DNA of 64,000 nucleotides from Chamaelirium japonicum (lineage: Eukaryota; Streptophyta; Magnoliopsida; Liliales; Melanthiaceae): contig CANTAL010000134.1 in assembly GCA_947650365.1 (NCBI GenBank), positions 310,001 to 374,000 on the forward strand, in the 5' to 3' direction. A program made the translations under genes and the position numbers. Below are positions 4,589 to 62,454 of this stretch, in pieces; the first letter of the stretch is position 1; each line of letters opens with the position of its first letter. The notes under the pieces were generated by a model. That model did not search any database, was not told the DNA's origin, and was given only the letters and a program-made list of their open reading frames with translations.

Positions 4589-5700
4589 TACGAATGGATA
4601 CATTCGTGTGAATGAATTAGAATGGATCGTACGAATGAGTAAGAATGGATCGTACGAATGAAATAGAATGGATTGCACGAATGAATTAGAATGGATCGTA
4701 CAAATGAATTAGAATGGATCGTGTGAAAGAAATAGAATGGATTGTATGAATGAATTAGAATGGATCGTACGAAGGAATTAGAATGGATCGTACGAATGAA
4801 TTAGAATGGATCGTACGAATGAATTAGAATAGATCGTACAAATGAATTAGAATGGATCGTACGAAGGAATTAGAATGGATCGTACGAATGAATTAGAATG
4901 GATATATTCGTGCAAATGCATTAGAATGGATCCTATGAATGTTTTAGAATGGATCGTATGAGTGAATTAGAATGGATCGTACGAATGAATTAGAATGGAT
5001 CGTATGAATGAATTAGAATGGATACATTCGTGTGAATGAATTAGAATGGATCGTATGAATGAATTAGAATAGATTTTGTGAATGAATTAGAACTGATCGT
5101 ACGAATGAATTAGAATGGATACATTCGTGCGAATGAATTAGAATGGATTGTATGAATGAATTAGAATGGATCGTACGAATGAAGTAGAATGGATACATTC
5201 GTGCGAATGAATTAGAATGGATCGTACGAATGAATTAGAATGGATCGTACGAATGAATTAGAATGGATCTTACAAATGAATTAGAATGGATCGTACGAAT
5301 GAATTAGAATGGATCGTACGAATGAATTAGAATGGATACATTCGTGCGAATGAATTAGAATGGATCGGACGAATGAATTAGAATGGATTGTACGAATGAA
5401 TTAGAATGGATCGTACGAATAAATTAGAATGGATACATTCGTCCGAATGAATTAGAATGGATCATACGAATGAGTAAGAATGGATCGTACGAATGAAATA
5501 GAATAGATTGTACGAATGAATTAGAATGGATCGTACGAAGGAATTAGAATGGATCGTATGAATGAATTAGAATGGATCGTACGAAGGAATTAGAATGGAT
5601 CATACGAATGAATTAGAATGGATCGTACGAAAGAATTAGAATGGATCGTATGAATGAATTAGAATGGATCGTGTGAATGAATTCGAATGGATCATACGAA
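4589..5700 (+). repeat. Satellite block, + orientation
   Basis: Opens at CATTCGTACGAATGG. Ends in the GAATTC junction at 5698..5703. Confidence 0.88.
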
Positions 5701-7494
5701 TTCATTCTAATTCATTCATTCAATCCATTCTAATTCTTTCACACGATCCATTCTAATTCATTCGTACGTTCCATTCTAATTCATTAGCACGATCCATGCT
5801 AATTCATTCGTTCGATCAATTCTAATTCATTAGCACGATCCATTCTAATTCATTCGTACGATCCATTCTAATTCATTCGCACGATCCATTCTAATTCATT
5901 CATAGGATCCATTCTAATTCATTCATACAATCCATTCTAATTCATTCGCACGAATGTATCCATTCTAATTCATTCGTACGATCAGTTCTAATTCATTCAC
6001 AAAATCTATTCTAATTCATTCATACGATCCATTCTAATTCATTCACACGAATGTATCCATTCTAATTCATTCATACGATCCATTCTAATTCATTTGTACG
6101 ATCCATTCTAATTCACTCATACGATCCATTCTAATACATTCATACGATCCATTCTAATTCCTTCGTACGATCCATTCTAATTCATTCGTACGATCTATTC
6201 TATTTCATTCGTACGATCCATTTTTACTCATTCGTACGATCCATTCTAATTCATTCGTCCGATCCATTCTAATTCATTCGCACGAATGTATCCATTCTAA
6301 TTCATTCGTTCGATCAATTCTAATTCATTAGCACGATCCATTCTAATTCATTCGTACGATCCATTCTAATTCATTCGCACGATCCATTCTAATTCATTCA
6401 TGGGATCCATTCTAATTCATTCGTACGATCCATTCTAATTCATTCGTACGATCCATTCTAATTCATTCATACGAATCCATTCTAATTCATTCGTACAATC
6501 TATTCTATATCATTCGTACGATCCATTCTTACTCATTCGTATGATCCATTCTAATTCATTCGGACGAATGTATCCATTCTAATTTATTCGTACGATCCAT
6601 TCTAATTCATTCGTATGATCCATTCTAATTCATTCGTACGATCCATTCTAATTCATTCGTCCGATCCATTCTAATTCATTCGCACGAATGTATCCATTCT
6701 AATTCATTCGTACGATCCATTCTAATTCATTCGTACGATCCATTCTAATTCATTCGTATGATCCATTCTAATTCATTCGTACGATCCATTCTAATTCATT
6801 CGTACGATCCATTCTAATTCATTCGCACGAATGTATCCATTCTAATTCATTCGTACAATCCATTCTATTTCATTCGTACGATCCATTCTTACTCATTCGT
6901 ATGATCCATTCTAATTCATTCGTATGATCCATTCTAATTCATTCGTACGATCCATTCTAATTCATTCGCACGATCCATTCTAATTCATTCATACGATCCA
7001 TTCTAATTCATTCATATAATCCATTCTAATTCATTCATACAATCCATTCTAATTCATTCGCCCGATCCATTCTAATTCATCCATACGATCCATTCTATTC
7101 GAATGGATCATGCGATCCATTCGAATTCATTTGCACGATCCATTCTAATTCATTCATACGATCCATTCTAATTCATTCATACAATGCATTCTAATTCTTT
7201 CACACGATCCATTCTATTTCATTCATACAATGCATTCTAATGCATTTCATTCATGCGATCCATTCTAATTCATTCGTATGATCCATTCTAATTCATTCGT
7301 ACGATCCATTCTAATTCATTTGTACGATCCATTCTAATTCATTCGTACAATCCATTCTATTTCATTCGTACGATCCATTCTTACTCATTCGTATAATCCA
7401 TTCTAATTCATTCGCACGAATATATCAATTCTAATTCATTCATACAATCCATTCTAATTCATTCTGTACGATCCATTCTAATTCATTCGTACGA
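5701..7494 (-). repeat. Satellite block, - orientation
   Basis: Begins with the junction module (CGTACGTTCC, TAGCACGATCCATGC, CGTTCGATCAATTC) repeated 2222 bases later. Contains the mini-hairpin at 7099. Confidence 0.88.
7099..7122. repeat. Mini-inversion hairpin CGAATGGATC-ATGC-GATCCATTCG
   Basis: Ten-base perfect arms and loop ATGC inside '-' satellite. It recurs at 15467, 38091 and 48691, with a degenerate form near 25968. Confidence 0.88.
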
Positions 7495-7922
7495 TCGTAC
7501 GAATGAATTAGAATAAATTGTACGAATGAATTAGAATAGATTGTGCGAATGAATTAGAATGGATCGTACGAATGAATTAGAATGGATCGTACGAATGAAT
7601 TAGAATGGATCATACGAATGAGTAAAAATGGATCGTACGAATGAATTAGAATGGATCATACGAATGAATTAGAATGGATCGTACGAATAAATTAGAATGG
7701 ATACATTCGTCCGAATGAATTAGAATGGATCATACGAATGAGTAAGAATGGATCGTACGAATGAAATAGAATAGATTGTACGAATGAATTAGAATGGATC
7801 CTACGAATGAATTAGAATGGATCGTGTGAAAGAATTAGAATGGATTGTATGAATGAATTAGAATGGATCGTATGAATGAATTAAAATGGATCGTGCGAAT
7901 GAATTCGAATGAATCGTACGAA
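7495..7922 (+). repeat. Satellite block, + orientation
   Basis: Opens at the 14-base palindrome CGTACGATCGTACG (7488..7501). Carries the CATTCGTCCG, GAGTAAGAATGG, GGATCCTACG, GTGTGAAAG marker order shared with blocks ending near 30094, 34124, 49909, 53870, 58729 and 62059. Confidence 0.88.
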
Positions 7923-9037
7923 TTCATTCTAATTCATTCATATAATCCATTCTAATTCTTTCACACGATCCATTCTAATTCATTCGTACGTTCCATTCTA
8001 ATTCATTAGCACGATCCATGCTAATTCATTCGTTCGATCAATTCTAATTCATTAGCACGATCCATTCTAATTCATTCGTACGATCCATTCTAATTCATTC
8101 GCACGATCCATTCTAATTCATTCATAGGATCCATTCTAATTCATTCATACAATCTATTCTAATTCTTTCGCACGAATGTATCCATTCTAATTCATTCGCA
8201 CGAATGTATCCATTCTAATTCATTCGTACGATCCATTCTAATTTATTCGTACGATCCATTCGAATTCATTCGCACGATCCATTCTAATTCATTCATATGA
8301 TCCATTCTAATTCATTCATATAATCCATTCTAATTCTTTCACCCGATCCATTCTAATTCATTCGTACGATCCATTCTAATTCATTCGTACGATCCATTCT
8401 ATTTCATTCGTACGATCCATTCTAATTCATTCGTACGATCCATTCTAATTCATTCGTACGATCCATTCTAATTCATTCGTACGATCCATTCTAATTCATT
8501 CGTACAAATGTATCCATTCTAATTCATTCCTATGATCTATTCTAATTCATTTGTACGATCCATTCTAATTCATTCGTACGATCCATTCTACGGTCCACTC
8601 TAATTCATTCATACGATCCATTCTAATTCATATGCACAAAGGTATCCATTCTAATCCATTCGTAGGATCCATTCTAATCCATTCGTACGATCTATTCTAA
8701 TTCATTCGTACGATCCATTCTAATTCATTCGCTCGAATGTATCCATTCCAATCCATTCGTACGATCCATAATAATCCATTCGTACGATCCATTCTAATTC
8801 ATTCTCATGAATGTAACCATTCTAATGAATTCATATGATCCATTCTAATTCATTCGTACGATCCATTCTATTTCATTCGTCCGATCCATTCTAATTCATT
8901 CGCACGAATCTATCCATTCTAATTCATTCGTACGATCCATTCTAATTCATTCCTACGATCCATTCTAATTCATTCATAAGATCCATTCTAATTCATTCGT
9001 ACGATCCATTCTAATTCTTTCTAATTCATTCGTACGA
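7923..9037 (-). repeat. Satellite block, - orientation
   Basis: Second copy of the module that opens the 5701 block. Also has CATATGCACAAAGG at about 8630. Confidence 0.88.
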
Positions 9038-15155: not shown

Positions 15156-15466
15156 ATTTTAATTCATTCGTATGATCCATCTAATTCATTCGCACGAATG
15201 TATCCATTCTAATTCATTCGTACAATCCATTCTATTTCATTCGTACGATCCATTCTTACTCATTCGTATGATCCATTCTAATTCATTCGTACGATCCATT
15301 CTAATTCATTCGCACGATCCATTCTAATTCATTCGCACGATCTATTCTAATTCATTCATACGATCCATTCTAATTCATTCATACGATCCATTCTAATTCA
15401 TTCCTACAATCCATTCTAATTCATTCGCCCGATCCATTCTAATTAATAAATACGATCCATTCTATT

Positions 15467-15490
15467 CGAATGGATCATGCGATCCATTCG
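15467..15490. repeat. Mini-inversion hairpin, second copy
   Basis: Identical arms and loop to 7099. It marks the start of copy 1 of the 22.6 kb segment. Confidence 0.88.
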
Positions 15491-16306
15491 AATTCATTCG
15501 CACGATCCATTCTAATTCATTCATACGATCCATTCTAATTCATTCATACAATGCATTCTAATTCTTTCACACGATCCATTCTAATTCATTTGTACGATCC
15601 ATTCTAATTCATTAATATGATCCATTCTAATTCATTCGTACGATCCATTCTAATTCATATGCACAAAGGTATCCATTCTAATCCATTCGTAGGATCCATT
15701 CTAATCCATTCGTATGATCCATTCTAATTCATTCGTACGATCCATTCTAATTCATTCGCTCGAATGTATCCATTCTAATCCATTCGTACGATCCATTCTA
15801 ATCCATTCGTACGATCCATTCTAATTCATTCGCATGAATGTAACCATTCTAATTCATTCATTTGATCCATTCTAATTCATTCGTACGATCCATTCTAATT
15901 CATTCGCACGATCCATTCTAATTCATTCATAGGATCCATTCTAATTCATTCGTACAATCCATTCTAATTCGTTCACACGATCCATTCTAATTCATTCGTA
16001 CGATCCATTCTAATTCATTCATACAATCCAATCTAATTCATTCGTATGATCCATTCTAATTCACTCATACGATCCATTCTAATACATTCATACGATCCAT
16101 TCTAATTCATTTGCACGAATATATCCATTCTAATTCATTCGTACGATCCATTCTAATTCATTCGTACGATCTATTCTAATTCATTCGTACGATCCATTCT
16201 AATTCATTCGTACGATCCATTCTAATTCCTTCGTACGATCCATTCTAATTCATTCGTACGATCAATTCTAATTCATTCGTACAATCTATTCTAATTCATT
16301 TCTACG

Positions 16307-16511
16307 AATGGATACATTCATGTGAATGAATTAGAATGGATCGTACGAATGAGTAAGAATGGATCGTATGAATGAAATAGAATAGATCGTACGAATGAAT
16401 TAGAATGGATCGTATGAATGAATTAGAATGGATCATATTAATGAATTAGAATGGATCGTACGAATGAATTAGAATGGATACATTCGTGCGAATGAATTAG
16501 AATGGATCGTG
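16307..16511 (+). repeat. Satellite block, + orientation
   Basis: Short '+' block ending at GATCGTGCACGAATG. With the following block it forms a shorter, more diverged version of the 1801..2051 inverted repeat, without the CCTTTGTGCATATG left end. Pairs with 38951..39158. Confidence 0.88.
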
Positions 16512-19440
16512 CACGAATGTATCCATTCTAATTCATTCGTACGAACCATTCTAATTCATTAATATGATCCATTCTAATTCATTCGTACGATCAATTCTAA
16601 TTCATATGCACAAAGGTATCCATTCTAATCCATTCGTAGGATCCGTTCTAATCCATTCGTACGATCCATTCTAATTCATTCGTACGATCCATTCTAATTC
16701 ATTCGCTCGAATGTATCCATTCTAATCCATTCGTACGATCCATTCTAAACCATTCGTACGATCCATTCTAATTCATTCGCATGAATGTAACCATTCTAAT
16801 TCATTCATTTGATCCATTCTAATTCATTCGTACGATCCATTCTAATTCATTCATCCGATCCATTCTAATTCATTCGCACGAATGTATCCATTCTAATTCA
16901 TTCGTACGATCCATTCTAATTCATTCGTAAGATCCATTCTAATTCATTCGTACGATCCATTCTAATTCATTCGTACGATCCATTCTAATTCATTCACACG
17001 ATCCATTCTAATTCATTCGTACGATCAAATCTAATTCATTCGCACGAATGTATCCATTCTAATTCATTCATACGATCCATTCTAATTCATTCGTACGATC
17101 CATTCTATTCCATTCGTACGATCCATTCTAATTCATTCGTCCGATCCATTCGAATTCATTCGCACAAATGTATCCATTCTAGTTCATTCGTATGATCCAT
17201 TCTATTTTATTCGTACGATCCATTCTTACTCATTCGTATGATCCATTCTAATTCATTCGGAGGAATGTATCCATTCTAATTTATTCGTACGATCCATTCT
17301 AATTCATTCGTACGATCCATTCTAATTCATTCGTCCGATCCATTCTAATTCATTCGCACGAATGTATCCATTCTAATTCATTCGTACGATCCATTCTAAT
17401 TCATTCATACGATCCATTCTAATTCATTCGTAAGATCCATTCTAATTCATTCGTACGATCCATTCTAATTCATTCGTACGATCCATTCTAATTGATTCAC
17501 ACGAATGTATCCATTCTAGTTCATTCGTACGATCCATTCTAATTCATTCGTACGATCCATTCTAATTCATTCGCACGATCCATTCTAATTCATTCGTACG
17601 ATCAATTCTAATTCATTTGCACGAATGTATCCATTCTAATTCATTCATACGATCCATTCTAATTCATTCGTACGATCCATTCTAATTCATTCATACAATC
17701 CATTCTAATTCTTTCACACGATCCATTCTAATTCATTCGTAGGATCCATTCTAATTCATTCGTACAATCTATTCTATTTCATTCGTACGATCCATTCTTA
17801 CTCATTCGCATGATCTATTCTAATTCATTCGCACGAATGTATCCATTCTAATTCATTCGTACAAATCCATTCTAATTCATTCGTACAATCCATTCTATTT
17901 CATTCGTACGATCCATTCTTACTCATTCGTACGATCCATTCTAATTCATTCGTACGATCCATTCAAATTCATTCGCACGATCCATTCTAATTCATTCATA
18001 CAATCCATTCTAATTCATTCCGTACGATCCATTCTAATTCATTCGCTCGAATTTATCCATTCTAATCCATTCGTACGATCCATTCTAATTCATTCGCATG
18101 AATGTAACCATTCTAATTCATTCATTTGATCCATTCTAATTCATTCGTACGATCCATTCTAATTCATTAGCACGATCCATGCTGATTCATTCGTTCGATC
18201 AATTCTAATTCATTAGCATGATCCATTCTAATTCATTCGTATGATCCATTCTAATTCATTCGCACGATCCATTCTAATTCATTCATAGGATCCATTCTAA
18301 TTCATTCATACGATCTATTCTAATTCTTTCGCACGAATGTATCCATTCTAATTCATTCGCACGAATATATCCATTCTAATTCATTCGTACGAATCCATTC
18401 TAATTCATTCGTACAATCTATTCTATTTCATTCGTTTGATCCATTCTAGTTCATTCGTACGATCCATTCTAATTCATTCGTACGATCCATTCTAATTCAT
18501 TCGTATGATCCATTCTAATTAATTCGTATGATCCATTCTAATTCATTCGTACGATCCATTCTAATTCATTCATACAATCCATTCTAATTCATTCGCACGA
18601 ATGTATCCATTCTAATTAATTCGTACGATCCATTCTAATTCATTCGTATGATCCATTCATATTCATTCGCACGATCCAGTCTAATGGATTCGCACGATCC
18701 ATTCTAATTCATTCGCACGAATGTATCCATTCTAATTCATTCATACGATCCATTCTAATTCATTCGTACGATCCATTCTAATTCATTCGCACAAATGTAT
18801 CCATTCTAATTCATTCGTACAATCCATTCTAATTCATTCATACTATCAGTTCTAATTCATTCACAAAATCTATTCTAATTCATTCATATGATCCATTCTA
18901 ATTCATTCGCACGATCCATTCTAATTCATTCGTACGATCCATTCTAATTCTTTCACACGATCCATTCTAATTCATTCGTACGATCTATTCTAATTCATTC
19001 GCACGATCCATTCTAATTCATTCGTACGATCCATTCTAATTCATTCATACGATCCATTCTAACTCATTCGTACGATCCATTCTAATTGATTCGCACAAAT
19101 GTATCCATTCTAATTCATTCGTACGATCCATTCTAATTCATTCGCATGATCCATTCTAATTCATTCGTACGATCCATTCTAATTCATTCGTACGATCCAT
19201 TCTAATTCATTCATACAATCCATTCTAATTCATTCGCACGAATGTATCCATTCTAATTAATTCGTACGACCCATTCTAATTCATTCGTATGATCTATTCT
19301 TATTCATTCGCACGATCCAGTCTAATTGATTCGCACGATCCATTCTAATTCATTCGCACGAATGTATCCATTCTAATTCATTCGTACGATCCATTCTAAT
19401 TCATATGCACAAAGGTATCCATTCTAATTCATTCGCACGA
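16512..19440 (-). repeat. Satellite block, - orientation
   Basis: Long '-' block with 120-base units and CACAAAGG markers near 16613 and 19410. Pairs with 39159..42181. Confidence 0.9.
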
Positions 19441-20520
19441 AAGAATTAGAATGGATTGTATGAAAGAATTAGAATGGATTGTATGAATGAATTAGAATGG
19501 ATCGTACGAATGAATTAGAATGGATCGTACGAATAAATTAGAATGGATACATTCGTCCGAATGAATTAGAATGGATCATACGAATGAGTAAGAATGGATC
19601 GTACGAATGAAATAGAATGGATTGTGCGAATGAATTAGAATGGACCGTACGAATGAATTAGAATGGATACATTCGTGCGAATGAATTAGAATGGATCGGA
19701 CGAATGAATTAGAATAGGTCGTACGAATGAATTAGAATGGATCGTACAAATGAATTAGAATGGATCGTACGAATAAATTAGAATGGATACATTCGTCCGA
19801 ATGAATTAGAATGGATCATACGAATGAGTAAGAATGGATCGTACGAATGAAATAAAATTGATTGTACGAATGAATTAGAATGGATCCTACGAATGAATTA
19901 GAATGGATCGGGTGAAAGAATTAGAATGGATTGTATGAATGAATTAGAATGGATCGTATGAATGAATTAGAATGGATCGTGCGAATGAATTAGAATGGAT
20001 CGTACGAATGAATTAGAATGGATACATTCGTGCGAATGAATTAGAATGGATCATACGAATGAGTAAGAATGGATCGTACGAATGAAATAGAATCGATTAT
20101 ACAAATGAATTAGAATGGATACATTCGTGCGAATGAATTAGAATGGATCGTATGTACGAATGAATTAGAATGGATACATTCGGGCGAATGAATTAGAATG
20201 GATCGTACGAATGAATTAGAATGGATCGTGCGAATGAATTAGAATGGATCGTACGAATGAATTAGAATGGACCGAACGAATGAACTAGAATGGATACATT
20301 CGTGCGAATGAATTAGAATGGATCGTACGAATGAATTAGAATGGATCGTACGAATGAATTAGAATGGATCGTACGTACTATCCATTCTAATGGATACATT
20401 TGTGCGAATGAATCTAAATAGATTGTATGAATGAATTACAATGGATCGTACGAAGGAATTAGAATGGATCATACGAATGAATTAGAATGGATCGTGCTAA
20501 TGAATTAGAATTGATCGAAC
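19441..20520 (+). repeat. Satellite block, + orientation, with mini-inversion
   Basis: Contains a 14-base reversed fragment near 20378..20391 after GTACGTAC. Pairs with 42182..43261. Confidence 0.88.
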
Positions 20521-20523
20521 GAA

Positions 20524-45251: not shown

Positions 45252-45419
45252 TTCATTCTAATTCATTCATACAATCCATTCTAATTCTTTCACACGATCT
45301 ATTCTGATGCATTCTACGATCCATTCTAATTCATTCGCACAATCCATTCTATTTCATTCGTACGATCCATTCTTACTCATTCGTATGATCCATTCTAATT
45401 CATTCGCACAAATGTATCC
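45252..45419 (-). repeat. Satellite block, - orientation
   Basis: Ends at TATCCATAATGGATC, as at 22846. Confidence 0.87.
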
Positions 45420-46267
45420 ATAATGGATCATACGAATGAGTAAGAATAGATCGTACGAATGAAATACGTACGAATGAATTTGAATGGATCTTACGAATGA
45501 ACTAGAATGGATCGTACGAATGAAATAGAATAGATTGTACGAATGAATTAGAATGGATTCGTACGAATGAATTAGAATGGATACATTCGTGCGAATGAAT
45601 TAGAATGGATACATTCGTGCGAAAGAATTAGAATAGATCGTATGAATGAATTAGAATGGATCCTATGAATGAATTAGAATGGATCGTGCGAATGAATTAG
45701 AATGGATCGTACGAATGAATTAGAATAGATCGTACGAATGAATTAGAATGGATCGTACGAAGGAATTAGAATGGATCGTACGAATGAATTAGAATGGATA
45801 TATTCGTGCAAATGAATTAGAATGGATCGTGCGAATGAATTAGAATGGATTGTACGAATCAATTAGAATGGATCGTACGAATGAATTAGAATGGATCTTA
45901 CGAATGAATTAGAATGGATTGTACGAATGAATTAGAATGGATCGTACGAATGAATTAGAATTGATACATTCGTGCGAATGAATTAGACTGGATCGGACGA
46001 ATGAATTAGAATGGATCGTATGAATGAATTAGAATGGATCAAATGAATGAATTAGAATGGTTACATTCATGCGAATGAATTAGAATGGATCGTACGAATG
46101 AATTAGAATGGATAGTATGAATGAATTAGAATGGATCGTACGAATGAATTAGAATGGATCAAATGAATGAATTAGAATGGTTACATTCATGCGAATGAAT
46201 TAGAATGGATCGTACGAATGGATTAGAATGGATCGTACGAATGGATTAGAATGGATACATTTGAGCG
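45420..46267 (+). repeat. Satellite block, + orientation
   Basis: Has the paired ATCAAATG / GGTTACATTCATGCG strings (46039 and 46158), like 23416 and 23535. Confidence 0.87.
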
Positions 46268-47345
46268 TACGATCCATTCTAATTCATTCGTCCGATCCAT
46301 TCTAATTCATTCGCATGAATATATCCATTCTAATTCATTCGTACGATCCATTCTAATTCATTCGTACGATCCATTCTATTTCATTCGTAAGATCCATTCT
46401 AATTCATTCGTACGATCCATTCTAATTCATTCGTACGATCCATTCTAATTCATTCGCACGAATGTATCCATTCTAGTTCATTCGTACGATCCATTCTAAT
46501 TCATTCGTATGATCCATTCTAATTCATTCGCACGATCCATTCTAATTCATTCGTACGACCCATTCTAATTCATTCATACGATCCATTCTAATTCATTCGT
46601 ACGATCCATTCTAATTCATTCGCACAAATGTATCCATTCTAATTCATTCGTACGATCCATTCTAATTCATTCATACGATCCATTCTAATTCTTTCACACT
46701 ATCCATTCTAATTCATTCTTACGATCCATTCCAATTCATTCGCACGATCCATTCTAATTCATTCGTACGATTCATTCTAATTCATTCATACGATCCATTC
46801 TAATTCATTCGTACGATCCATTGTAATTCATTCGCACAAATATATCCATTCTAATTCATTCGTACGATCCATTCTAATTCATTCGCACGATCCATTCTAA
46901 TTCATTCGAACGATCCATTCTAATTCATTCGTATGATCCATTCTAATTAATTCGTACGATCCATTCTAATTCATTCGCACGAATGTATCAATTCTAATTC
47001 ATTCGTACAATCCATTCTATTTCATTCGTACGATCCATTCTTACTCATTCGTATGATCCATTCTAATACATTCGTACGATTCATGCTAATTCATTCGTAC
47101 GATCCATTCTAATTCATTCGTATGATCCATTTTTATTCATTCATACGATCCATTCTAATTCATTCGCACAATCCATTCTAATCCATTCTAATCCATTCTA
47201 ATTCATTTGTAAGATCCAATCTAATTTATTCGTAAGATCCATTCTAATTCATTCACACGATCCATTCTAATTCATTCGTACGATCCATTCTAAATCATTC
47301 GTGCAATCCATTCTATTTCATTTGTACGATCAATTCTAATTCATT
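46268..47345 (-). repeat. Satellite block, - orientation
   Basis: The 65-codon open frame spanning its left edge is satellite read-through, not a gene. Has CTAATCCATTC slippage duplicated once more than copy 1 (near 47180). Confidence 0.87.
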
Positions 47346-48345
47346 AGAATGGATCGTACGAATGAATTAGAATGGATCATATTAATGAATTAGAATGGAT
47401 CGTATGAATGAATTATAATGGATCGTACGAACGAATTAGAATGGATCGTACGAAGGAATTAGAATGGATCGTACGAATGAATTAGAATGGATATATTCGT
47501 GCAAATGAATTAGAATGGATCGTATGAATGAATTAGAATGGATCGTACGAATGAATTAGAATGGATATATTCGTGCAAATGAATTAGAATGGATCGTATA
47601 AATGTATTAGAATGGATCGTATGAGTGAATTAGAATGGATACATTCGTGCGAATGAATTAGAATGGATCGTACCAATGAGTAAGAATGGATCGTACGAGT
47701 GAAATAGAATGGATTGTGCGAATGAATTAGAATGGATCGTACGAATGAATTAGAATGGATCGTGTGAAAGAATTAGAATGGATTGTATGAATTAATTAGA
47801 ATAGATCATATGAATTAATTAGAATGGATCGTACGAATGAATTAGAATGGATCGTACGAATGAATTTGAATGGATACATTTGTGCGAATGAATCTAAATG
47901 GATTGTATGAATGAATTACAATGGATCGTACGAATGAATTAAAATGGATCGTACGAATGAATTAGAATAGCTCATACGAATGAATTAGAATGAATCGTAT
48001 GAATGAATTAGAATGGTTACATTCGTGCGAATGAATTAGAATAGATCGTACGAATGAATTAGAATGGATCGTACGAATAAATTAGAATGGATCGTGGGAA
48101 TGAATTAGAATGGATCGTACGAATGAATTAGAATGGATCCACCGGATAAGTTAGAATGGATCATACGAATGAATTAGAATGGATTGTACGAATGAATTAG
48201 AATGGATTGTGCGAATGAATTAGAATGGATCGTATGAATGAATAAGAATGGATCGCACGAATGAATTAGAATGGATCGTGCGAATGAATTAGCATGAATC
48301 GTACGAATGTATTAGAATGGATCGTACGAATGAATTAGAATGAAT
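47346..48345 (+). repeat. Satellite block, + orientation
   Basis: Third occurrence of the AGCTCATACG / GGATCCACCG string (47970 to 48147). Its left end has about 100 bases of extra monomers relative to copy 1. Confidence 0.9.
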
Positions 48346-49345
48346 CGTACGATCCATTCTAATTCAATCGTCCGATCCATTCTAATTCATTCGCATGAAT
48401 GTATCCATTCTAATTCATTCGTACAATCCATTCTATTTCATTCGTACGATCCATTCTTACTCATTCGTATGATCCATTCTAATTCATTCGTATGATCCAT
48501 TCTAATTCATTCGTACGATCCATTCTAATTCATTCGTACGATCCATTCTAATTCATTCGCACGATCTATTCTAATTCATTCATACGATCCATTCTAATTC
48601 ATTCATACGATCCATTCTAATTCATTCCTACAATCCATTCTAATTCATTCGCCCGATCCATTCTAATTCATTCATACGATCCATTCTATTCGAATGGATC
48701 ATGCGATCCATTCGAATTCATTCGCACGATCAATTCTAATTCATTCATACGATCCATTCTAATTCATTCATACAATGCATTCTAATTCTTTCGCACGATC
48801 CATTCTAATTCAATCATACGATCCATTCTAATTCATTCGTACGATCCATTCTAATTCACTCATGCGATCCATTCTAATTCATTCGTACGATCCATTCTAA
48901 TTCATTCGTTCGATCTATTCTAATTCATTCGCACGAATGTATCCATTTTAATTCATTCGTACGATCCATTCTAATTCATTCGTACGATCCATTCAAATTC
49001 ATTTGTAAGATCCATTCTAATTCATTCGTACGATCCATTCTAATTCATTCGTACGATTCATTCTAATTCATTCGCACGAATGTATCCATTCTAGTTCATT
49101 TGTACGATCCATTCTAAGTCATTCGTACGATCCATTCTAATTCATTCATACGATCTATTCTAATTCATTCATACAATCCATTCCAATTCTAGTTCATTTG
49201 TACGATCCATTCTAATTCATTCGTACGATCCATTCTAATTCATTCGTACGATCCATTCTAATTCCTTCGTACGATCCATTCTAATTCTAATTCTATTCTA
49301 ATTCATTCATACAATCCATTCTAATTCATTCGCACGAATGTATCC
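48346..49345 (-). repeat. Satellite block, - orientation
   Basis: Partner of 25623..26729, about 100 bases shorter because monomers near 49195 are missing. Ends at the second island. Confidence 0.88.
48691..48714. repeat. Mini-inversion hairpin, fourth copy
   Basis: Identical arms and loop. Its partner in copy 1, near 25968, has decayed (GCATCATTCG). Confidence 0.85.
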
Positions 49346-49426
49346 GCGCCTCCACCACCTCCTCGCCCGGACGCCGGCCTAGGTCAGCCACCTGCCCCAC
49401 TTCCCATTGTTCGCCACAAGATTCAA
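49346..49426. other. 81-bp GC-rich non-satellite island, copy 2
   Basis: Same length as the island at 26730 with 78 of 81 bases identical, offset 22616. It has the same flanks: '-' satellite ending GTATCC on the left and ATGTATCGTATGAATG on the right. It anchors the 22.6 kb duplication independently of the satellite repeats. Confidence 0.88.
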
Positions 49427-49909
49427 ATGTATCGTATGAATGAATTAGAATGGATCGTGTGAAAGAATTAGAATCGATTGTATGAATGAATTAGAATAGA
49501 TCGTATGAATGAATTAGAATGGATCGTACGAATGAATTAGAATGGATCGTACGAATGAATTAGAATGGATACATTCGTGCGAATGAATTAGAATGGATCG
49601 GACGAATGAATTAGAATGGATCGTACGAATGAATTAGAATGGATCATACGAATGAATTAGAATGGATCGTACGAATAAATTAGAATGGATACATTCGTCC
49701 GAATGAATTAGATTGGATCATACGAATGAGTAAGAATGGATCGTACGAATGAAATAGAATAGATTGTACGAATGAATTAGAATGGATCCTACGAATGAAT
49801 TAAATGGATTGTGTGAAAGAATTAGAATGGATTGTATGAATGAATTAGAATGGATCGTATGAATGAATTAGAATGGATCGTGCAAATGAATTCGAATGGA
49901 TCGTACGAA
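49427..49909 (+). repeat. Satellite block, + orientation, across the 2.8 kb deletion
   Basis: Starts like 26811 but after a few monomers matches about 29.7 kb onward. The deletion joint lies within about 100 bases of 49450. Ends at GAATTC 49907. Confidence 0.88.
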
Positions 49910-52102
49910 TTCATTCTAATTCATTCATACAATCCATTCTAATTCTTTCACACGATCCATTCTAATTCATTCGTACGTTCCATTCTAATTCATTAGCACG
50001 ATCCATGCTAATTCATTCGTTCGATCAATTCTAATTCATTAGCATGATCCATTCTAATTCATTCGTACGATCCATTCTAATTCATTCGCACGATCTATTC
50101 TAATTCGTTCATAGGATCCATTCTAATTCATTCATACGATCTATTCTAATTCTTTCGAACGAATGTATGCACTCTAATTCATTCGCACGAATGTATCCAT
50201 TCTAATTCATTCGTACAATCCATTCTAATTCATTCGTACGATCCATTCTAATTCATTCGTACGATCCATTCTAATTCATTCATACGATCTATTCTAATTC
50301 ATTCATACAATCCATTCTAATTCTTTCACACGATCCATTCTAATTCATTCGTACGATCCATTCTAATTCATTCGCACAATCCATTCTATTTCATTCGTAC
50401 GATCCATTCTTACTCATTGGTACGATCTATTCTAATTCATTCGCACGAATGTATCCAATCTAATTCATTCGTACGAATCCATTCTAATTCATTCGTACAA
50501 TCCATTCTATTTCATTCATACGATCCATTCTTACTCATTCGTATGATCCATTCTAATTCATTCGCACGAATGTATCCATTCTAAATCATTTGTACGATCC
50601 ATTCTAATTTATTCGTACGATCCATTCTAAATCATTCGTACAATCCATTCTATTTCATTCGTACGATCAATTCTAATTCATTAGCACGATCCATTCTAAT
50701 TCATTCGTACGGTCCATTCAAATTCATTCGCACGATCCATTCTAATTCATTCGTACAATCCATTCTATTTCATTCGTACGATCCATTCTTACTCATTCGT
50801 ATGATCCATTCTAATTCATTCGCACGAATGTATCCATTCTAATCCATTCGTACGATCCATTCTAATCCATTCGTACGATCCATTCTAATTCATTCGCATG
50901 AATGTAACCATTCTAATTCATTCATTTGATCCATTCTAAATCATTCGTACGATCCATTCTAATTCATTCGTCTGATCCATTCTAATTCATTCGCACGAAT
51001 GTATCCATTCTAAACCATTCATACGATCCATTCTAATTTATTCGTACGATCTATTCTAATTCATTCGTAAGATCCATTCTAATTCATTCGTACGATCCAT
51101 TCTAATTCATTCGTACGATCCATTCTAATTCATTCGTAAGATCCATTCTAATTCATTCGTACGATCCATTCTAATTCATTCGTACGATCCATTCTAATTC
51201 ATTCGCACGAATGTATCCATTCTAGTTCATTCGTACGATCCATTCTAATTCATTCGTACGATCCATTCTAATTCATTCGCACGATCCATTCTAATTCATT
51301 CGTACGATCCATTCTAATTCATTCATACGATCCATTCTAATTCATTCGTACGATCCATTCTAATTCATTCGCACAAATGTATCCATTCTAATTCATTTGT
51401 ACGATCCATTCTAATTCATTCGCACGATCCATTCTAATTCATTCGTACGATCCATTCTAATTCTTTCACACGATCCATTCTAATTCATTCGTACGATCCA
51501 TTCTAATTCATTCGCACGATCCATTCTAATTCATTCGTACGATCCATTCTAATTCATTCATACGATCCATTCTAATACATTCATACGATCCATTCTAATT
51601 CATTTGCACGAATATATCCATTCTAATTCATTCGTACGATCCATTCTAATTCATTCGTACGATCTATACTAATTCATTCGTACGATCCATTCTAATTCAT
51701 TCGTACGATCCATTCTAATTCCTTCGTACGATCCATTCTAATTCATTTGTACGATCCATTCTAATTCATTCATACAATCCATTCTAATTCTTTCACACGA
51801 TCCATTCTAATTAATTCGTACGATCCATTCTAATTCATTCGTGCAATCCATTCTAATTCATTCATACAATCCATTCTAATTCATTCGTACGATCCATTCT
51901 AATTCACTCATACGATCCATTCTAATACAATCATACGATCCATTCTAATTCATTTGCACGAATATATCCATTCTAATTCATTCGTACGATCCATTCTAAT
52001 TCCTTCGTAAGATCCATTCTAATTCATTCGTACGATCTATTCTAATTCATTCGTACGATCCATTCTAATTCCTTCGTACGATCCATTCTAATTCATTCGT
52101 AC
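49910..52102 (-). repeat. Satellite block, - orientation
   Basis: Partner of 30095..32287 with offset 19815; TATGCACTCT at 50166. Confidence 0.9.
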
Positions 52103-53231
52103 GAAGGAATTAGAATAGATCGTACGAAGGAATTAGAATGGATCGTACGAATGAATTAGAATGGATCGTACGAATGAATTAGAATATATCGTACGAATGA
52201 ATTAGAATGGATTGTACGAAGGAATTAGAATGGATCGTACAAATGAATTAGAATGGATATATTCGTGCAAATGAATTAGAATGGATAATATGAATGTATT
52301 AGAATGGATCGTATGAGTGAATTAGAATGGATCGTACGAATGAATTAGAATGTATCGTATGAATGAATTAGAATGGATACATTCGTGTGAATGAATTAGA
52401 ATGGATCGTATGAATGAATTAGAACTGATCGTACGAATGAATTAGAATGGATACATTCGTGCGAATGAATTAGAATGGATTGTATGAATGAATTAGAATG
52501 GATCGTACGAATGAATTAGAATGGATCGTATGAGTGAATTAGAATGGATACGAAGGAATTAGATTGGATCGTACGAAGGAATTAGAATGGATCATACGAA
52601 TGAAATAGAATGGATCGTACGAAGGAATTAGAATGGATCGTACGAAGGAATTAGAATGGATCGTACGAATGAATTAGAATGGATATATTCGTGCAAATGA
52701 ATTAGAATGGATCGTATGAATAAATTAGAATGGATCGTATGAGTGAATTAGAAGGGATAGTACGAATGAAGTAGAATGGATCGTATGAATGAATTAGAAT
52801 GGATACATTCGTGTCAATGAATTAGAATGGATCGTATGAATGAATTAGAATACATTGTGCGAATGAATTAGAATGGATCGTACGAATGAATTAGAATGGA
52901 TACATTTGTGTGAATAAATTAGAATGGATTGTATGAATGAATTAGAATGGATCGTACGAATGAATTAGAATGGATCGTACGAATGAATTAGAATAGATTG
53001 CGCAAATGAATTAGAATGGATCGTACGAATGAATTAGAATGGATCGTACGAAGGAATTAGAATGGATCGTACGAATGAATTAGAATGAATCGTACGAATG
53101 AATTAGAATGGATCGTACGAAGGAATTAGAATGGATCGTACGAATGAATTAGAATGGATCATACGATTGAATTAGAATGGATCATACGAATGAGTAAGAA
53201 TGGATCGTATGAATGAATTAGATTGGATCGT
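52103..53231 (+). repeat. Satellite block, + orientation
   Basis: Partner of 32288..33416, with the same GAAGGGATAGTACG and GGATACGAAGG variants. Confidence 0.88.
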
Positions 53232-53235
53232 ACGA

Positions 53236-53282
53236 TCCATTCTAATTCATTAGCATGGATCGTGCTAATGAATTAGAATGGA
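53236..53282. repeat. Hairpin junction, 20-bp arms, copy 3
   Basis: Arms 53236..53255 and 53263..53282 around TGGATCG. It lies exactly 19815 bases after 33421, confirming the segment pairing there. Confidence 0.9.
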
Positions 53283-53870
53283 ATATACGAATAAATTAGA
53301 ATGGACCGTAGAATGAATCGTACGAATGAATTAGAATGCATCGTACGAATGAATTAGAATAGATCATAGGAATGAATTAGAATGGATCGTGCAAATGAAT
53401 TAGAATGGATACATTCGTGCGAATGAATTTGAATGGATCGTGCGAATGAATTAGAATGGATCGTACGAATGAATTAGAATGGATATATTTGAACGAATAA
53501 ATTAGAATGGATCATACGAATGAATTAGAATGGATCGTACGAATGAATTAGAATGGATAGTGCGAATGAATTAGAATGGATCGTACGAATGAATTAGAAT
53601 GGATCGTAACAATGAATTAGAATGGATCGTACGAATAAATTAGAATGGATACATTTGTCCGAATGAATTAGAATGGATCATACGAATGAGTAAGAATGGA
53701 TCGTATGAATGAAATAGAATAGATTGTACGAATGAATTAGAATGGATCCTACAAATGAATTAGAATGGATCGTGTGAAAGAATTAGAATGGATTGTATGA
53801 ATGAATTAGAATGGATCGTATGAATGAATTAGAATGGATCGTGCGAATGAATTCGAATGGATCGTACGAA
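53263..53870 (+). repeat. Satellite block, + orientation
   Basis: Three monomers shorter than 33448..34124. Ends at GAATTC 53868. Confidence 0.88.
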
Positions 53871-54277
53871 TTCATTCTAATTCATTCATACAATCCATTC
53901 TAATTCTTTCACACGATCCATTCTAATTCATTCGTACGTTCCATTCTAATTCATTAGCACGATCCATGCTAATTCATTCGTTCGATCAATTCTAATTCAT
54001 TAGCACGATCTATTCTAATTCATTCGTACGATTCATTCTAATTCATTCGCACGATCTATTCTAATTCATTCATATGATCCATTCTAATTCATTCATACGA
54101 TCTATTCTAATTCTTTCGCACGAATGTATCCATTTTAATTCATTCGCGCGAATGTATCCATTCTAATTCATTCGTACGATCCATTCTAATTCATTCGTAC
54201 GATCCATTCTAATTCATTCGCACAATCCATTCTATTTCATTCGTACGATCCATTCTTACTCATTCGTATGATCCATT
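53871..54277 (-). repeat. Satellite block, - orientation
   Basis: Partner of 34125..34532, ending at the same CCATTATGG. Confidence 0.88.
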
Positions 54278-54954
54278 ATGGATACATTCGTGCGAATGAA
54301 TTAGAATGAATCATACGAATGAGTAAGAATGGATCGTACGAATGAAATAGAATGGATTGTGCGAATAAATTAGAATGGATCGTACGAATGAATTAGAATG
54401 GATCGTGTGAAAGAATTAGAATGGATTATATGAATGAATTAGAATAGATCGTATGAATGAATTAGAATGGATCGTACGAATGAATTAGAATGGATCGTAC
54501 GAATGAATTAGAATGGATCGTACGAATGAATTAGAATGGATACATTCGTGCGAATGAATTAGAATGGATACATTCGTGTGAAAGAATTTGAATAGATCGT
54601 ATGAATGAATTAGAATGGATCCTATGAATGAATTAGAATGGATCGTGCGAATGAATTAGAATGGATCGTACGAATGAATTAGAATGGATCGTGCCAATGA
54701 ATTAGAATTGATCGAACGAATGAATTAGAATGGATACATTCGTGCGAATGAATTAGAATGGATCGGACGAATGAATTAGAATGGATCATACGAATGAGCA
54801 AGAGTGGATCATACGAATGAAATAGAATAGATCATACAAATGAATTAGAATGGATCGTACGAAGGAATTAGAATGGATTGTACGAATATATTAGAATGGA
54901 TCGTATGAGTGAATTAGAATGGATCGTACAAATGAATTAGAATGGATCGTATGA
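54278..54954 (+). repeat. Satellite block, + orientation, end of 22.6 kb homology
   Basis: Matches 34533 to 35185, then stops at ATGAATGTATCC, where the strand flips in this copy only. Confidence 0.86.
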
Positions 54955-55946
54955 ATGTATCCATTCTAATTCATTCGTACGATCCATTCTAATTCATTCG
55001 CACAAATGTATCCATTCTAATTCATTCGTACGATCCATTCTAATTCATTCGTACGATCCATTCTAATTCATTCGCACGAATGTATCCATTCTAATTCATT
55101 CGTACGATCCATTCTAATTCATTTGTATGATCGATTCTAATTAATTCGTATGATCCATTCTAATTCATTCGTATGATCAAATCTAGTTCATTCGTACGAT
55201 CCATTCTAATTCATTCGTACGATCCATTCTAATTCATTCACACGATCCATTCTAATTCATTCGTCCGATCCATTCTAATTCACTTGCACGAATGTATCCA
55301 TTCTAATTCATTCATAAGATCCATTCTAATTCATTCGTACGATCCATTCTAATTCATTCGTACAATCCATTCTAATTCATTCGCACGAATGTATCCATTC
55401 TAATTCATTCGTACGATCCATTCTAATTCATTCGTACGATCCATTCTAATTCATTCGCACGATCTATTCTAATTCATTCGTACGATCCATTCTATTTTAT
55501 TCATACGATCCATTCTAATTCATTCGTACGATCCATTCTAATTCATTCGCACAAATGTATCCATTCTAATTCATTCGTACGATCCATTCTAATTCATTCG
55601 TACGATCCATTCTAATTCATTCGCACGAATGTATCCATTCTAATTCATTCGTACGATCCATTCTAATTCATTCGTACGATCCATTCTAATTAATTCGTAT
55701 GATCCATTCTAATTCATTCGTATGATCAATTCTAGTTCATTCGTACGATCCATTCTAATTCATTCGTACGATCCATTCTAATTCATTCATACAATCCATT
55801 CTAATTCTTTCACACGATCCATTCTAATTCATTCGTACAAACCATTCTAATTTATTCGTGCAATCCATTCTATTTCATTCGTACGATCCATTCTTACTCA
55901 TTCGTACGATCCATTCTAATTCATTCACACGAATGTATCCATTCGT
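54955..55946 (-). repeat. Satellite block, - orientation
   Basis: With the next block forms the first copy of a direct repeat of about 1.25 kb (CACACGAATGTATCCATTCG at about 55927 and 57198). Confidence 0.87.
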
Positions 55947-57217: not shown

Positions 57218-57895
57218 ACGAATGAAATAGAATAGATTGTACGAATGAATTAGAACGGATCGTACGAATGAATTAGAATGGATCGTATGAATGAATTAGA
57301 ATGGATCGTACGAATGAATTAAAATGGATCATGCGAATGAATTAGAATGGATCGTACGAATGAATTAGAATGGATCGTACGAATGAACTAGAATGGATAC
57401 ATTCGTGCGAATGAATTAGAATGGATAGTACGAATGAATTAGAATGGATCGTACGAATGAATTAGAATGGATCGTACGAATGAATTAGAATGGATCCTGT
57501 GAAAGAATTAGAATGGATCGTATGAATGAATTAGAATGGATCGTGCGAATGAATTCGAATGGATCATACGAATGAATTAGAATGGATCGTACAAATGAAT
57601 TAGAATGGATACATTCGTGCGAATGAATTAGAATGGATACATTCGTGCGAAAGAATTAGAATAGATCGTATGAATGAATTAGAATGGATCCTATTAATGA
57701 ATTAGAATGGATCATGCGAATGAATTAGAATGGATCGTACGAATGAATTAGAATGTATCTTGCTAATGAATTAGAATTGATCGAACGAAGGAATTAGCAT
57801 GGATCGTGCTAATGAATTAGAATGGAACGTACGAATGAATTAGAATGGATCGTGTGAAAGAATTAGAATGGATTGTATGAATGAATTAGAATGAA
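57218..57895 (+). repeat. Satellite block, + orientation
   Basis: Ends at the reversed GAATTC junction (57893..57898); includes the start of the 3.3 kb repeat near 57620. Confidence 0.87.
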
Positions 57896-58324
57896 TTCGT
57901 ACGATCCATTCGAATTCATTCGCACGATCCATTCTAATTCATTCATACGATCCATTCTAATTCATTCATACAATCCATTGTAATTCTTTCACACGATCCA
58001 TTCTAATTCATTCGTAGGATCCATTCTAATTCATTCGTACAATCTATTCTATTTCATTCGTACGATCCATTCTTACTCATTCGTATGATCCATTCTAATT
58101 CATTCGGACGAATGTATCCATTCTAATTTATTTGTACGATCCATTCTAATTCATTCGTACGATCCATTCTAATTCATTCGTACGATCCATTCTTACTCAT
58201 TCGTATGATCCATTCTAATTCATTCGTACGATCCATTCTAATTCATTCGTACGATCCATTCTAATTTATTCGCACAATCTATTCTAATTCATTCGTACGA
58301 TCCATTCTAATTCATTCATACGAT
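57896..58324 (-). repeat. Satellite block, - orientation
   Basis: Pairs with 61249..61654; ends at CGATCGTACG. Confidence 0.87.
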
Positions 58325-58729
58325 CGTACGAATGAATTAGAATGGATCGTAAGGAATGAATTAGAATAGATTGTATGAATGTATTAGAATGGATACCTTC
58401 GTGCGAATGAATTAGAATGGATCATACGAATGAGTAAGAATGGATCGTACGAATGAAATAGAATGGATTGTACGAATGAATTAGAGTGGATCGTACAAAT
58501 GAATTAGAATGGATCGTACGAATGAATTAGAATGGATCATACGAATGAGTAAGAATGGATCGTACGAATGAAATAGAATAGATTGTACGAATGAATTAGA
58601 ATGGATCCTACGAATGGATTAGAATGGATCGTGTGAAAGAATTAGAATGGATTGTATGAATGAATTAGAATGGATCGTATGAATGAATTAGAATGGATCG
58701 TGCGAATGAATTTGAATGGATCGTACGAA
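58325..58729 (+). repeat. Satellite block, + orientation
   Basis: Pairs with 61655..62059, offset 3330; both have TTTGAATGG just before the GAATTC junction. Confidence 0.88.
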
Positions 58730-59134
58730 TTCATTCTAATTCATTCATACAATCCATTCTAATTCTTTCACACGATCCATTCTAATTCATTCGTACGTTC
58801 CATTCTAATTCATTAGCACGATCCATGCTAATTCATTCGTTCGATCAATTCTAATTCATTAGCACGATCCATTCTAATTCATTCGTACGATCCATTCTAA
58901 TTAATTCGCACGATCCATTCTAATTCATTCGTTTGATACATTCTAATTCCTTCGTAAGATCCATTCTAATTCATTCATACAATCCATTCTAATTCTTTCA
59001 CACGATCGATTCTAATTCATTCGTACGATCCATTCTAATTCATTCGTGCAATCCATTCTATTTCATTCGTACGATCCATTCTTACTCATTTGTACGATCC
59101 ATTCTAATTCATTCACACGAATGTATCCATTCGT
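58730..59134 (-). repeat. Satellite block, - orientation
   Basis: Shares CGTTTGATACATTC near 58930 with 62270. Ends at GTATCCATTCGTATG. Confidence 0.87.
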
Positions 59135-59847
59135 ATGAATGAATTAGAATTGATTGTACGAATGAATTAGAATGGATCGTACGAATGAATTAGAATGGAT
59201 CGTACGAAGGAATTAGAATGGATCGTACGAATGAATTAGAATGGATATATTCGTGCAAATGAATTAGAATGGTTCGTATGAATGTATTAGAATGGATCGT
59301 ATAAGTGAATTAGAATGGATCGTACGAATGAATTAGAATAGATCGTGCGAATGAATTAGAATGGATCGTACGAATGAATTAGAATGGATCGTACGAATGA
59401 ACTAGAATGGATACATTCGTGCGAATGAATTAGAATGGATCGTACGAATGAATTAGAATGGATCGTACGAATGAATTAGAATGGATCGTACGAATGGATT
59501 AGAATGGATCATACGAATGAATTAGAATGGATCGTGCGAATGAATTAGAATGGATCGAACGAATGAATTAGAATGGATATATTCGAGCGAATGAATTAGA
59601 ATAGATCGTAGGAATGAATTAGAATGGATCATACGAATGAATTAGAATGGATCGTCCGAACGAATTAGAATGGATCGTACGAACGAAATAGAATGGATCA
59701 TATGAATGAATTAGAATGGATCGTACGAGGTTACATTCATGAGAATGAATTAGAATGGATCGTACGAATGGATTAGAATGGATCGTACGAATGGATTAGA
59801 ATGGATACATTCGTGCGAATGAATTAGAATGGATACATTCGTGCGAA
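59135..59847 (+). repeat. Satellite block, + orientation
   Basis: Contains the odd join CGTACGAGGTTACATTCATGAG near 59725, repeated near 63160. Confidence 0.87.
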
Positions 59848-59884: not shown

Positions 59885-61248
59885 GGATCGTACGAATGAA
59901 CTAGAATAGATACATTCGTGCGAATGAATTAGAATTGATCGTACGAATGAATTAGTATGGATCGTGCGAATGAATTAGAATGGATCGTACGAATGAATTA
60001 GAATGGATCATACGAATGAACTAGAATGGATACATTCGTGCGAATGAATTAGAATGGATCGTACGAATGAATTAGAATGGATCGTACGAATGAATTAGAA
60101 TGGATCGTACGAATGAATTAGAATGGATCGTACGAATGAATTAGAATGGATACATTCGTGCGAATGAATTAGAATGGATCGGACGAATGAATTAGAATGG
60201 ATCGTACGAATGAATTAGAATGGATCAAATGAATGAAATAGAATGGTTACATTCATGCGAATGAATTAGAATGGATCGTACGAATGGATTAGAATGGATC
60301 GTACGAATGGATTAGAATGGATACATTCGAGCGAATGAATTAGAATGGATCGTACGAATGAATTAGAATGGATCGTACGAATGGATTAGAATGGATCCTA
60401 CGAATGGATTAGAATGGATACCTTTGTGCATATGAATTAGAATGGATCGTACGAATGAATTAGAATGGATCATATTAATGAATTAGAATGGATCATACGA
60501 ATGAATTAGAATGGATACATTCGTGCGAATGAATTAGAATGGATCGTGCGAATCAATTAGACTGGATCGTGCGAATGAATAAGAATAGATCATACGAATG
60601 AATTAGAATGGATCGTACGAATTAATTAGAATGGATACATTCGTGCGAATGAATTAGAATGGATTGTATGAATGAATTAGAATGGATCGTACGAATGAAT
60701 TAGAATGGATCATACGAATTAATTAGAATGGATCATACGAATGAATTAGAATGGATCGCACGAATGAAATAGAATGGATTGTACGAATGAATTAGAATGG
60801 ATCGTACGAATGAATTAGAATGGATCGTGTGAAAGAATTAGAATGGATTGTATGAATGAATTAGAATAGATCATATGAATGAATTAGAATGGATCGTGCG
60901 AATGAATTCGAATGGATTGTACGACTGAATTAGAATGGATCGTACGAATGAATTAGAATGGATACATTCGTACGAATGAATTAGAATGGATACATTAGTG
61001 TAAAAGAATTAGAATAGATCGTATGAATGAATTAGAATGGATCCTATGAATGAATTAGAATGGATCGTGCGAATGAATTAGAATGGATCGTACGAATGAA
61101 TTAGAATGGATCGTGCTAATGAATCAGAATTGATCGAACGAATGAATTAGCATGGATCGTGCTAATGAATTAGAATGGAACGTACGAATGAATTAGAATG
61201 GATCGTGTGAAAGAATTAGAATGGATCGTGTGAAAGAATTAGAATGAA
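59885..61248 (+). repeat. Satellite block, + orientation
   Basis: Has the CCTTTGTGCATATG marker at about 60421. Ends at the reversed GAATTC junction (61246..61251). Confidence 0.88.
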
Positions 61249-61654
61249 TTCGTACGATCCATTCGAATTCATTCGCACGATCCATTCTAATTCATTCATA
61301 CGATCCATTCTAATTCATTCATACAATCCATTCTAATTCTTTCACACGATCCATTCTAATTCATTCGTAGGATCCATACTAATTCATTCGTACAATCTAT
61401 TCTATTTCATTCGTACGATCCATTCTTACTCATTTGTATGATCCATTCTAATTCATTCGGACGAATTTATCCATTCTAATTTATTTGTACGATCCATTCT
61501 AATTCATTCGTACGATCCATTCTAATTCATTCGTACGATCCATTCTTACTCATTCGTATGATCCATTCTAATTCATTCGTACGATCCATTCTAATTCATT
61601 CGCACAATCTATTCTAATTCATTCGTACGATCCATTCTAATTCATTCGTACAAT
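61249..61654 (-). repeat. Satellite block, - orientation
   Basis: Second copy of 57896..58324 in the 3.3 kb repeat; ends CAATCGTACG. Confidence 0.87.
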
Positions 61655-62059
61655 CGTACGAATGAATTAGAATGGATCGTACGGAATGAATTAGAATGGA
61701 TTGTATGAATGAATTAGAATGGATACATTCGTGCGAATGAATTAGAATGGATCATACGAATGAGTAAGAATGGATCGTACGAATGGAATAGAATGGATTG
61801 TACGAATGAATTAGAATGGATCGTACAAATGAATTAGAATGGATCGTACGAATGAATTAGAATGGATCATACGAATGAGTAAGAATGGATCGAACGAATG
61901 AAATAGAATAGATTGTACGAATGAATTAGAATGGATCCTACGAATGAATTAGAATGGATCGTGTGAAAGAATTAGAATGGATTGTATGAATGAATTAGAA
62001 TGGATCGTATGAATGAATTAGAATTGATCGTGCGAATGAATTTGAATGGATCGTACGAA
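61655..62059 (+). repeat. Satellite block, + orientation
   Basis: Second copy of 58325..58729; ends at GAATTC 62057. Confidence 0.88.
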
Positions 62060-62454
62060 TTCATTCTAATTCATTCATACAATCCATTCTAATTCTTTCA
62101 CACGATCCATTCTAATTCATTCGTACGTTCCATTCTAATTCATTAGCACGATCCATGCTAATTCATTCGTTCGATCAATTCTAATTCATTAGCACGATCC
62201 ATTCTAATTCATTCGTACGATCCATTCTAATTAATTCGCATGATCCATTCTAATTCATTCGTTTGATACATTCTAATTCCTTCGTACGATCCATTCTAAT
62301 TCATTCATACAATCCATTCTAATTCATTCATACAATCCATTCTAATTCATTCATACGATCCATTCTAATTCATTCGTGCAATCCATTCTATTTCATTCGT
62401 ACGATCCATTCATACGATCCATTCTAATTCATTCACACGAATGTATCCATTCGT
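62060..62454 (-). repeat. Satellite block, - orientation
   Basis: Second copy of 58730..59134 with altered monomers and an out-of-phase join near 62410 (CCATTCATACGATCC). Confidence 0.87.

Follow-up and report, generated by a model that had tools for sequence, protein, structure and literature searches.

Strand switches of a 23/28-bp satellite array probably spread by block copying after a limited number of founding events

Introduction

Whether a satellite array that changes strand many times over has been inverted repeatedly or has copied a few strand switches is the question raised by the 64-kb stretch of DNA analysed here (contig CANTAL010000134.1, positions 310,001 to 374,000; termed the window and numbered from its first letter). 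A 23-bp unit repeated in tandem makes up the window save for a few inserts. Cores of this unit, defined as the 12-base CCATTCTAATTC or its complement at no more than 2 mismatches, number 1534 in forward and 1037 in reverse orientation and fall into 77 orientation blocks, hence 76 strand switches or about one per 840 bases; 5 of the blocks depend on one core each, and merging them would leave 66 switches by an eye count. One reverse-to-forward (R-to-F) switch, here called junction A, occurs 17 times in both orientations. We consider it likely that the switches of this array, which is most likely of the Chio type, were founded a limited number of times and were then spread by block copying.

Junction A and its copies

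An earlier note on this DNA had described the junction at 13 forward sites with GAATTC and at four reverse sites, all of which were confirmed. Named by these sites, the forward copies are 5698 (5675..5707), 7920 (7897..7929), 20521 (20498..20530), 22673 (22650..22682), 30092 (30069..30101), 34122 (34099..34131), 36213 (36190..36222), 43259 (43236..43268), 45249 (45226..45258), 49907 (49884..49916), 53868 (53845..53877), 58727 (58704..58736) and 62057 (62034..62066), and the reverse copies are 1245 (1241..1273), 27145 (27141..27173, reading AAATTC), 57893 (57889..57921) and 61246 (61242..61274). The span of 5620-62140 given for them holds 16 copies and leaves 1245 outside. Their neighbouring sequences, called fixed with variants at some sites, do vary: 20521 and 43259 are without the left GAATTCG, 22673 and 45249 read GAATTCA, and 58727 and 62057 read GAATTTG.

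Clustering of all 38 R-to-F switches over 120 bp of sequence placed exactly these 17 in one class at thresholds of 0.08, 0.12 and 0.15, with no R-to-F pair distance falling at 0.10-0.12 and two at 0.12-0.14. Dinucleotide shuffling, a weak null for satellite DNA, predicts 0.62 matches to the junction 15-mer at up to 2 mismatches; the window has 70, the majority of which are not the junction. Junction A forms an inverted repeat whose 11-bp arms enclose an 11-base loop; 8 of the 17 copies are exact, and 15 have at most one mismatch per arm. A single R-to-F switch of another class, at 13211-13243, likewise has the 11-bp gap and, allowing one mismatch per arm, the hairpin pattern, and is either a distant relative or an independent event.

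For 13 of the 17 copies there is good support for common descent; these have long flanks in common on at least one side. Across the 136 junction pairs, mean identity of the 100-bp flanks, the common GAATTC included, was 0.922 on the left and 0.948 on the right compared to 0.833 in 595 random same-phase pairs, and that of the 300-bp flanks was 0.864 and 0.858 against a null of 0.837. Lenient extension of homology had run into the satellite background; strict extension, used with its own null, gave median common lengths of 178 bp (left) and 201 bp (right), while the largest set median among 60 random sets of 17 was 92 and 127, respectively. In the alignment the copies carry identical monomer variants on either side, and a 97-base string of the right arm is found with 0-4 mismatches at 13 of the 17 junctions and with at least 5 elsewhere in the window (8 places at 5). 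From this string and the shared flanks it follows that the 13 copies, or 9 lineages once recent duplicates are set aside, trace to one junction. The corresponding left-arm string at up to 3 mismatches occurs at 11 junctions and 12 non-junction places, and is probably the sequence that preceded the switch.

The extent of sharing differs among the copies. Among the older copies, longer left sharing, mostly of 0.4-0.45 kb, is found in 7920, 30092, 34122, 1245, 57893 and 61246, with 0.34-0.66 kb on the right, while 5698, 27145, 36213 and 58727 have a shorter shared flank on one or both sides. An example of an older common stretch of about 1 kb around the junction is 29660..30749 (+), which matches 7493-8576 at 94.2%; 29665-30642 likewise matches 700-1672, reversed, at 95.9%.

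The remaining four copies form two divergent lineages on the forward strand, 20521 with its duplicate 43259 and 22673 with its duplicate 45249. The former pair carries other left-arm variants and shares with other copies 68-95 bp on the left (several mismatches, GAATTCG lacking) and 48-77 bp on the right under strict extension; the right flank of 20521 is common over 68-77 bp, or 143 bp with its duplicate. Most of what is shared on the right is a variant with 59 occurrences in the window, so a separate origin may apply, notably to this pair. The latter pair shares left flanks of 68-155 bp and right flanks of 48-155 bp (strict), and its arms mirror each other closer than any of 600 null pairs. 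Both lineages probably derive from junction A through later replacement of their flanks. The claim of common descent through shared monomer variants thus stands for the 13 copies and is less than firm for these four; likewise, a single origin of the inversion is upheld for the 13 and is likely rather than proven for the two divergent pairs.

Switch classes, duplicated blocks and palindromes

The 76 switches fall into about 29 classes, with 62 of them in multi-copy classes; when second copies of the two recent duplications were removed, 53 switches were left and 32 of these were in multi-copy classes. The number of classes at thresholds of 0.08, 0.12 and 0.15 was 14, 14 and 11 for R-to-F and 20, 15 and 14 for forward-to-reverse (F-to-R) switches, and 29 is a slight overcount because the FR15 switch at 45401 is the positional duplicate of an FR13 switch.

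The larger of the recent duplications comprises 15164..35201 (+, 21 switches) and 37907..54957 (+, 19 switches). By class label 18 of the 19 switches in the second copy agree in order with the first, the remaining one being FR15 opposite FR13. Ten globally aligned pieces of the two copies are 95.8-98.5% identical over aligned bases with gaps left out; global alignment was adopted, local block identities being uneven partly from gap scoring. The second copy has both its ends within strand switches, 37905-37920 and 54945-54961, which are one-copy classes at threshold 0.12 and join 63654 in one class at 0.15. About 2.8 kb of the first copy (26815..29615, +) is absent from the second, together with its two switches, one of which is the reverse copy 27145. 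The other recent duplication is a tandem one of 3.35 kb, 57229..59698 (+) and 60582..63013 (+), whose copies are 93-94% identical. Six of the 17 junction A copies are therefore second copies, namely 43259, 45249, 49907 and 53868 (of 20521, 22673, 30092 and 34122, in the large block) and 61246 and 62057 (of 57893 and 58727, in the 3.35-kb duplication), and collapsing them leaves 11 lineages.

The window thus holds one switch in many copies with common flanks (13 of 17), and most of its switches (62 of 76) belong to multi-copy classes. There is no regular higher-order repeat with one fixed head-to-tail unit: the two larger duplications differ in size, and homology among junction A copies ends sometimes within same-orientation satellite and sometimes at switches. 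The idea that the junction was amplified as part of a composite unit is accordingly borne out insofar as the blocks carry the switch, and fails as regards a single fixed unit.

Renewed inversion of the junction is visible only in palindromes. The reverse copies 57893 and 61246, each on a left arm, face the forward copies 58727 and 62057 on the right arms of two palindromes, 57696..58929 (centred near 58312, matching its reverse complement at 94.5%) and 60887..62411 (centred near 61649, at 92.1%). In a mirror-arm test of 75 of the 76 switches, omitting 63911 whose arm runs off the window, 61643 exceeded all 600 null pairs and 58313 had a null fraction of 0.003; the palindrome at about 61.65 kb is in register (arms 2-399 and 2-400) and that at about 58.3 kb has an offset of about 17 bp. 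One inverted duplication followed by the 3.35-kb duplication would yield both palindromes. The statement that the unit was inverted again is hence supported only by the pairs 57893/58727 and 61246/62057; the tree, which is poorly resolved, places the four reverse copies in no common clade and gives no count of the reversals behind 1245 and 27145.

Identity of the satellite array

The array most likely represents part of a centromere-type 23/28-bp array, Chio1/Chio2 of Chionographis japonica or a close relative, judging from its sequence traits. Adjacent same-orientation cores are spaced by 23 bp in 2080 and by 28 bp in 318 of 2494 pairs, with the two monomers intermingled; the 28-bp monomer is the 23-bp one with 5 bases added and one substituted, and the 9-mer TTCGTACGA is present in the 23-bp form. 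These features, along with the mixture of forward and reverse arrays noted above, are those published for Chio1/Chio2, the comparison being made with the published wording as the printed monomer letters sit in a figure. Exact monomer copies on both strands number 577 for ATTCGTACGATCCATTCTAATTC and 76 for ATTCGCACGAATGTATCCATTCTAATTC. A text search of the literature with monomer stretches matched no paper, and the satellite was not found in viral and prokaryote contigs.

Further levels of organization were observed. The single-core blocks of opposite orientation (20382-20393, 33422-33433, 43120-43131, 53237-53248 and 63400-63411) could be one-monomer inversions, and a two-monomer variant, a 46-mer with 59 matches at up to one mismatch, recurs in both orientations across the window as a further repeat level. 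The non-satellite DNA consists of a stretch of about 1.5 kb (13.65-15.15 kb) and two of about 75 bp (at 26.7 and 49.3 kb). The ~75-bp inserts are GC-rich and lie at a strand switch in both copies of the large block (26712-26825 and 49328-49441). The ~1.5-kb insert (13653-15153), the sole non-satellite stretch of such length in the window, directly precedes the large duplicated block and holds internal 146-bp and 22-bp tandem repeats and a TATA-like stretch; we presume a likeness to the solo long terminal repeat of a plant retrotransposon, and a search for it among plasmids gave no match.

Comparison with known systems

In Kuo et al. 2023, Chio1 and Chio2 of the holocentric Chionographis japonica are described as intermingled monomers of 23 and 28 bp in forward and reverse arrays (PMC10264360), and a 2025 paper reports the 9-mer TTCGTACGA and frequently alternating orientation in Chio arrays, unlike the large arrays of the sister-genus Chamaelirium luteum, whose orientation is consistent (PMC12722358). 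The window resembles Chio1/Chio2 in its 23/28-bp monomers differing by 5 bp and one substitution, in TTCGTACGA, intermingling, mixed orientation and dyad symmetry. Those accounts, in the portions covered, give mixed orientation without classes, copies or genealogy of single switches, and no genealogy of individual Chio switches was found in literature searches that included parts of PMC10264360 and PMC12722358.

Many-copy inversion-site sequences within satellite arrays are also described for the beetle Tribolium madens, where INV_1a and INV_1b have 2044 copies at 98.9% and 3486 copies at 98.2% similarity (PMC13081366). The beetle array differs in its subunits of about 110 bp, mainly in two opposite subarrays several kb long, whereas the 64-kb window changes strand every ~0.84 kb, with about 29 switch classes. 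According to the same source, the 1061-bp satellite of Tribolium brevicornis contains inverted segments of about 470 bp, so that its repeat unit likewise holds its own inversion; it is a regular monomer, in contrast to the common stretches of several sizes and without fixed ends seen here. Yeast foldback inversions are inverted duplications formed via short DNA hairpins and followed by homology-mediated rearrangement (PMC7467729), a sequence of events similar to that proposed below; yeast is an experimental system, while the fold-back in the window is deduced from sequence alone.

Founding and spread of the switches

In the reading that we favour, fold-back or template switching at or beside the self-complementary TTCGTACGA, for which there is some support at R-to-F switches only, would have founded strand switches on a limited number of occasions. 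These would have spread since the blocks that the array duplicates exceed the switch spacing in size. Copies of junction A lie in two such duplications, one of about 20 kb and one of 3.35 kb, and an older set shares up to about 1 kb in both orientations. The palindromes may have come from inverted duplication by fold-back, and later spread may have proceeded by non-allelic homologous recombination, whether unequal exchange, gene conversion or break-induced replication.

As to founding, the core-to-core gap is 10-19 bp in 13 of the 14 R-to-F classes (scan p = 0.0002, with the scan width of 10 taken from the data, a point that weakens the result; spread p = 0.0001; both against random joins), so that the R-to-F breakpoints fall in the spacer holding the self-complementary segment. 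A binomial p for this range was set aside as the range had been picked after seeing the data. These gaps suggest founding at the self-complementary part of the monomer, for the R-to-F polarity only. A short fold-back with a template switch could write junction A; direct joining to the satellite variant GATTCATTCTAATTC, which occurs 17 times, would explain it nearly as well. The presence of the two-monomer variant on both arms of junction A was rejected as proof of fold-back, given its 59 occurrences at up to one mismatch.

Several further results weigh against this reading, in its founding and in its copying part alike. The F-to-R classes show no clustering of breakpoints (p = 0.16), the dyad shows no excess at junctions over random joins (11 of 14, p = 0.24; 12 of 15, p = 0.16), and in 15 of the 17 junction A copies the arms do not mirror each other (null fractions 0.098-0.67), which leaves a long fold-back at this junction undemonstrated. 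The F-to-R classes are without clean separation by distance, numbering 20, 15 or 14 by threshold. Four of the 17 copies share only the short flanks of about 48-155 bp per side, and only 53 (left) and 57 (right) of the 136 junction pairs exceed the null 95th percentile of homology extents. The 500-bp alignment and tree that had been proposed as a check showed flanks alike near the junction, a mean 500-bp identity (0.820 left, 0.814 right) below the null of 0.838 because the flanks change orientation or content, and a tree, made ignoring recombination, that is well supported at only 5 of its 14 inner branches. The species assignment, finally, is based on monomer length, the indel and substitution pattern and one 9-mer.

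Alternative explanations were weighed against the same evidence. Independent flips at a preferred sequence, by which the self-complementary part of the monomer would make the same junction repeatedly, would fit the concentration of R-to-F breakpoints in the dyad-holding spacer, the left-arm variant at 12 non-junction places versus 11 junctions (at up to 3 mismatches) and the little that 20521/43259 share beyond the junction and a common variant; they may account for the founding of separate classes and of two junction A lineages. The right-arm string at 0-4 mismatches is nonetheless found at 13 junctions and nowhere else, by a margin of one mismatch at 27145 (4 against 5), and the flanks of these 13 are common well past the junction. 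Flank identity, homology extents and the 97-mer thus reject independent origin for the 13, and as a general account such flips are improbable. We give equally little credence to the notion that certain switch classes outcopy plain satellite because their hairpin, as in junction A with its 11-bp arms and 11-base loop, invites breakage and ectopic copying. Still less credible is an assembly artefact, in which fold-back chimeric reads or collapsed repeats gave false switches and duplicates: satellite inverted repeats are difficult to assemble, but the duplicated pieces differ by about 1.5-8%, with their own indels, and such divergence exceeds what read errors should produce. Mixed orientation of Chio arrays has, moreover, already been published (PMC10264360, PMC12722358).

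Two alternatives concern the mode of copying. In-place inversion, where crossing over between inverted satellite stretches and not inverted copying gave the reverse copies, is a tentative option well short of an even chance; the satellite stretches, being about 83% alike, could recombine, and the switches flanking 1245 (682 and 1757) have no mirror arms (null fractions 0.69 and 0.69). A simple inversion, however, makes no palindromes with matching arms such as those across which 57893 and 61246 face forward copies, and a weak mirror signal at switch 28229, between 27145 and 30092 (null fraction 0.010 among 75 switches), also argues for inverted copying. Spread of composite units by excision of circular DNA, rolling-circle copying and reinsertion is unlikely, even though the 2023 paper put this route forward to explain how Chio arrays spread (PMC10264360), and the second copy of the large block starts and ends inside one-copy switches, as a non-homologous insertion might. 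Some homology ends in same-orientation satellite, as homologous recombination would leave it (for example at +201 bp in 58727 and 62057 and at about -430 bp in 30092), and other homology ends at switches (about -410 bp at 7920 and +326 bp at 27145).

Significance

Overall, limited founding of switches followed by block copying extends the published mixed orientation of Chio arrays and the amplified inversion sites of a beetle, and is not a new kind of phenomenon. Were hairpin-driven copying true after all, a switch would be the driver both of its block's spread and of the densely alternating orientation in these holocentromere arrays. If most switches are inherited copies, as we favour, the alternation would mostly be a side effect of block copying that came after rarer founding events, and each switch class would serve as a marker for the movement of array blocks between centromere units.

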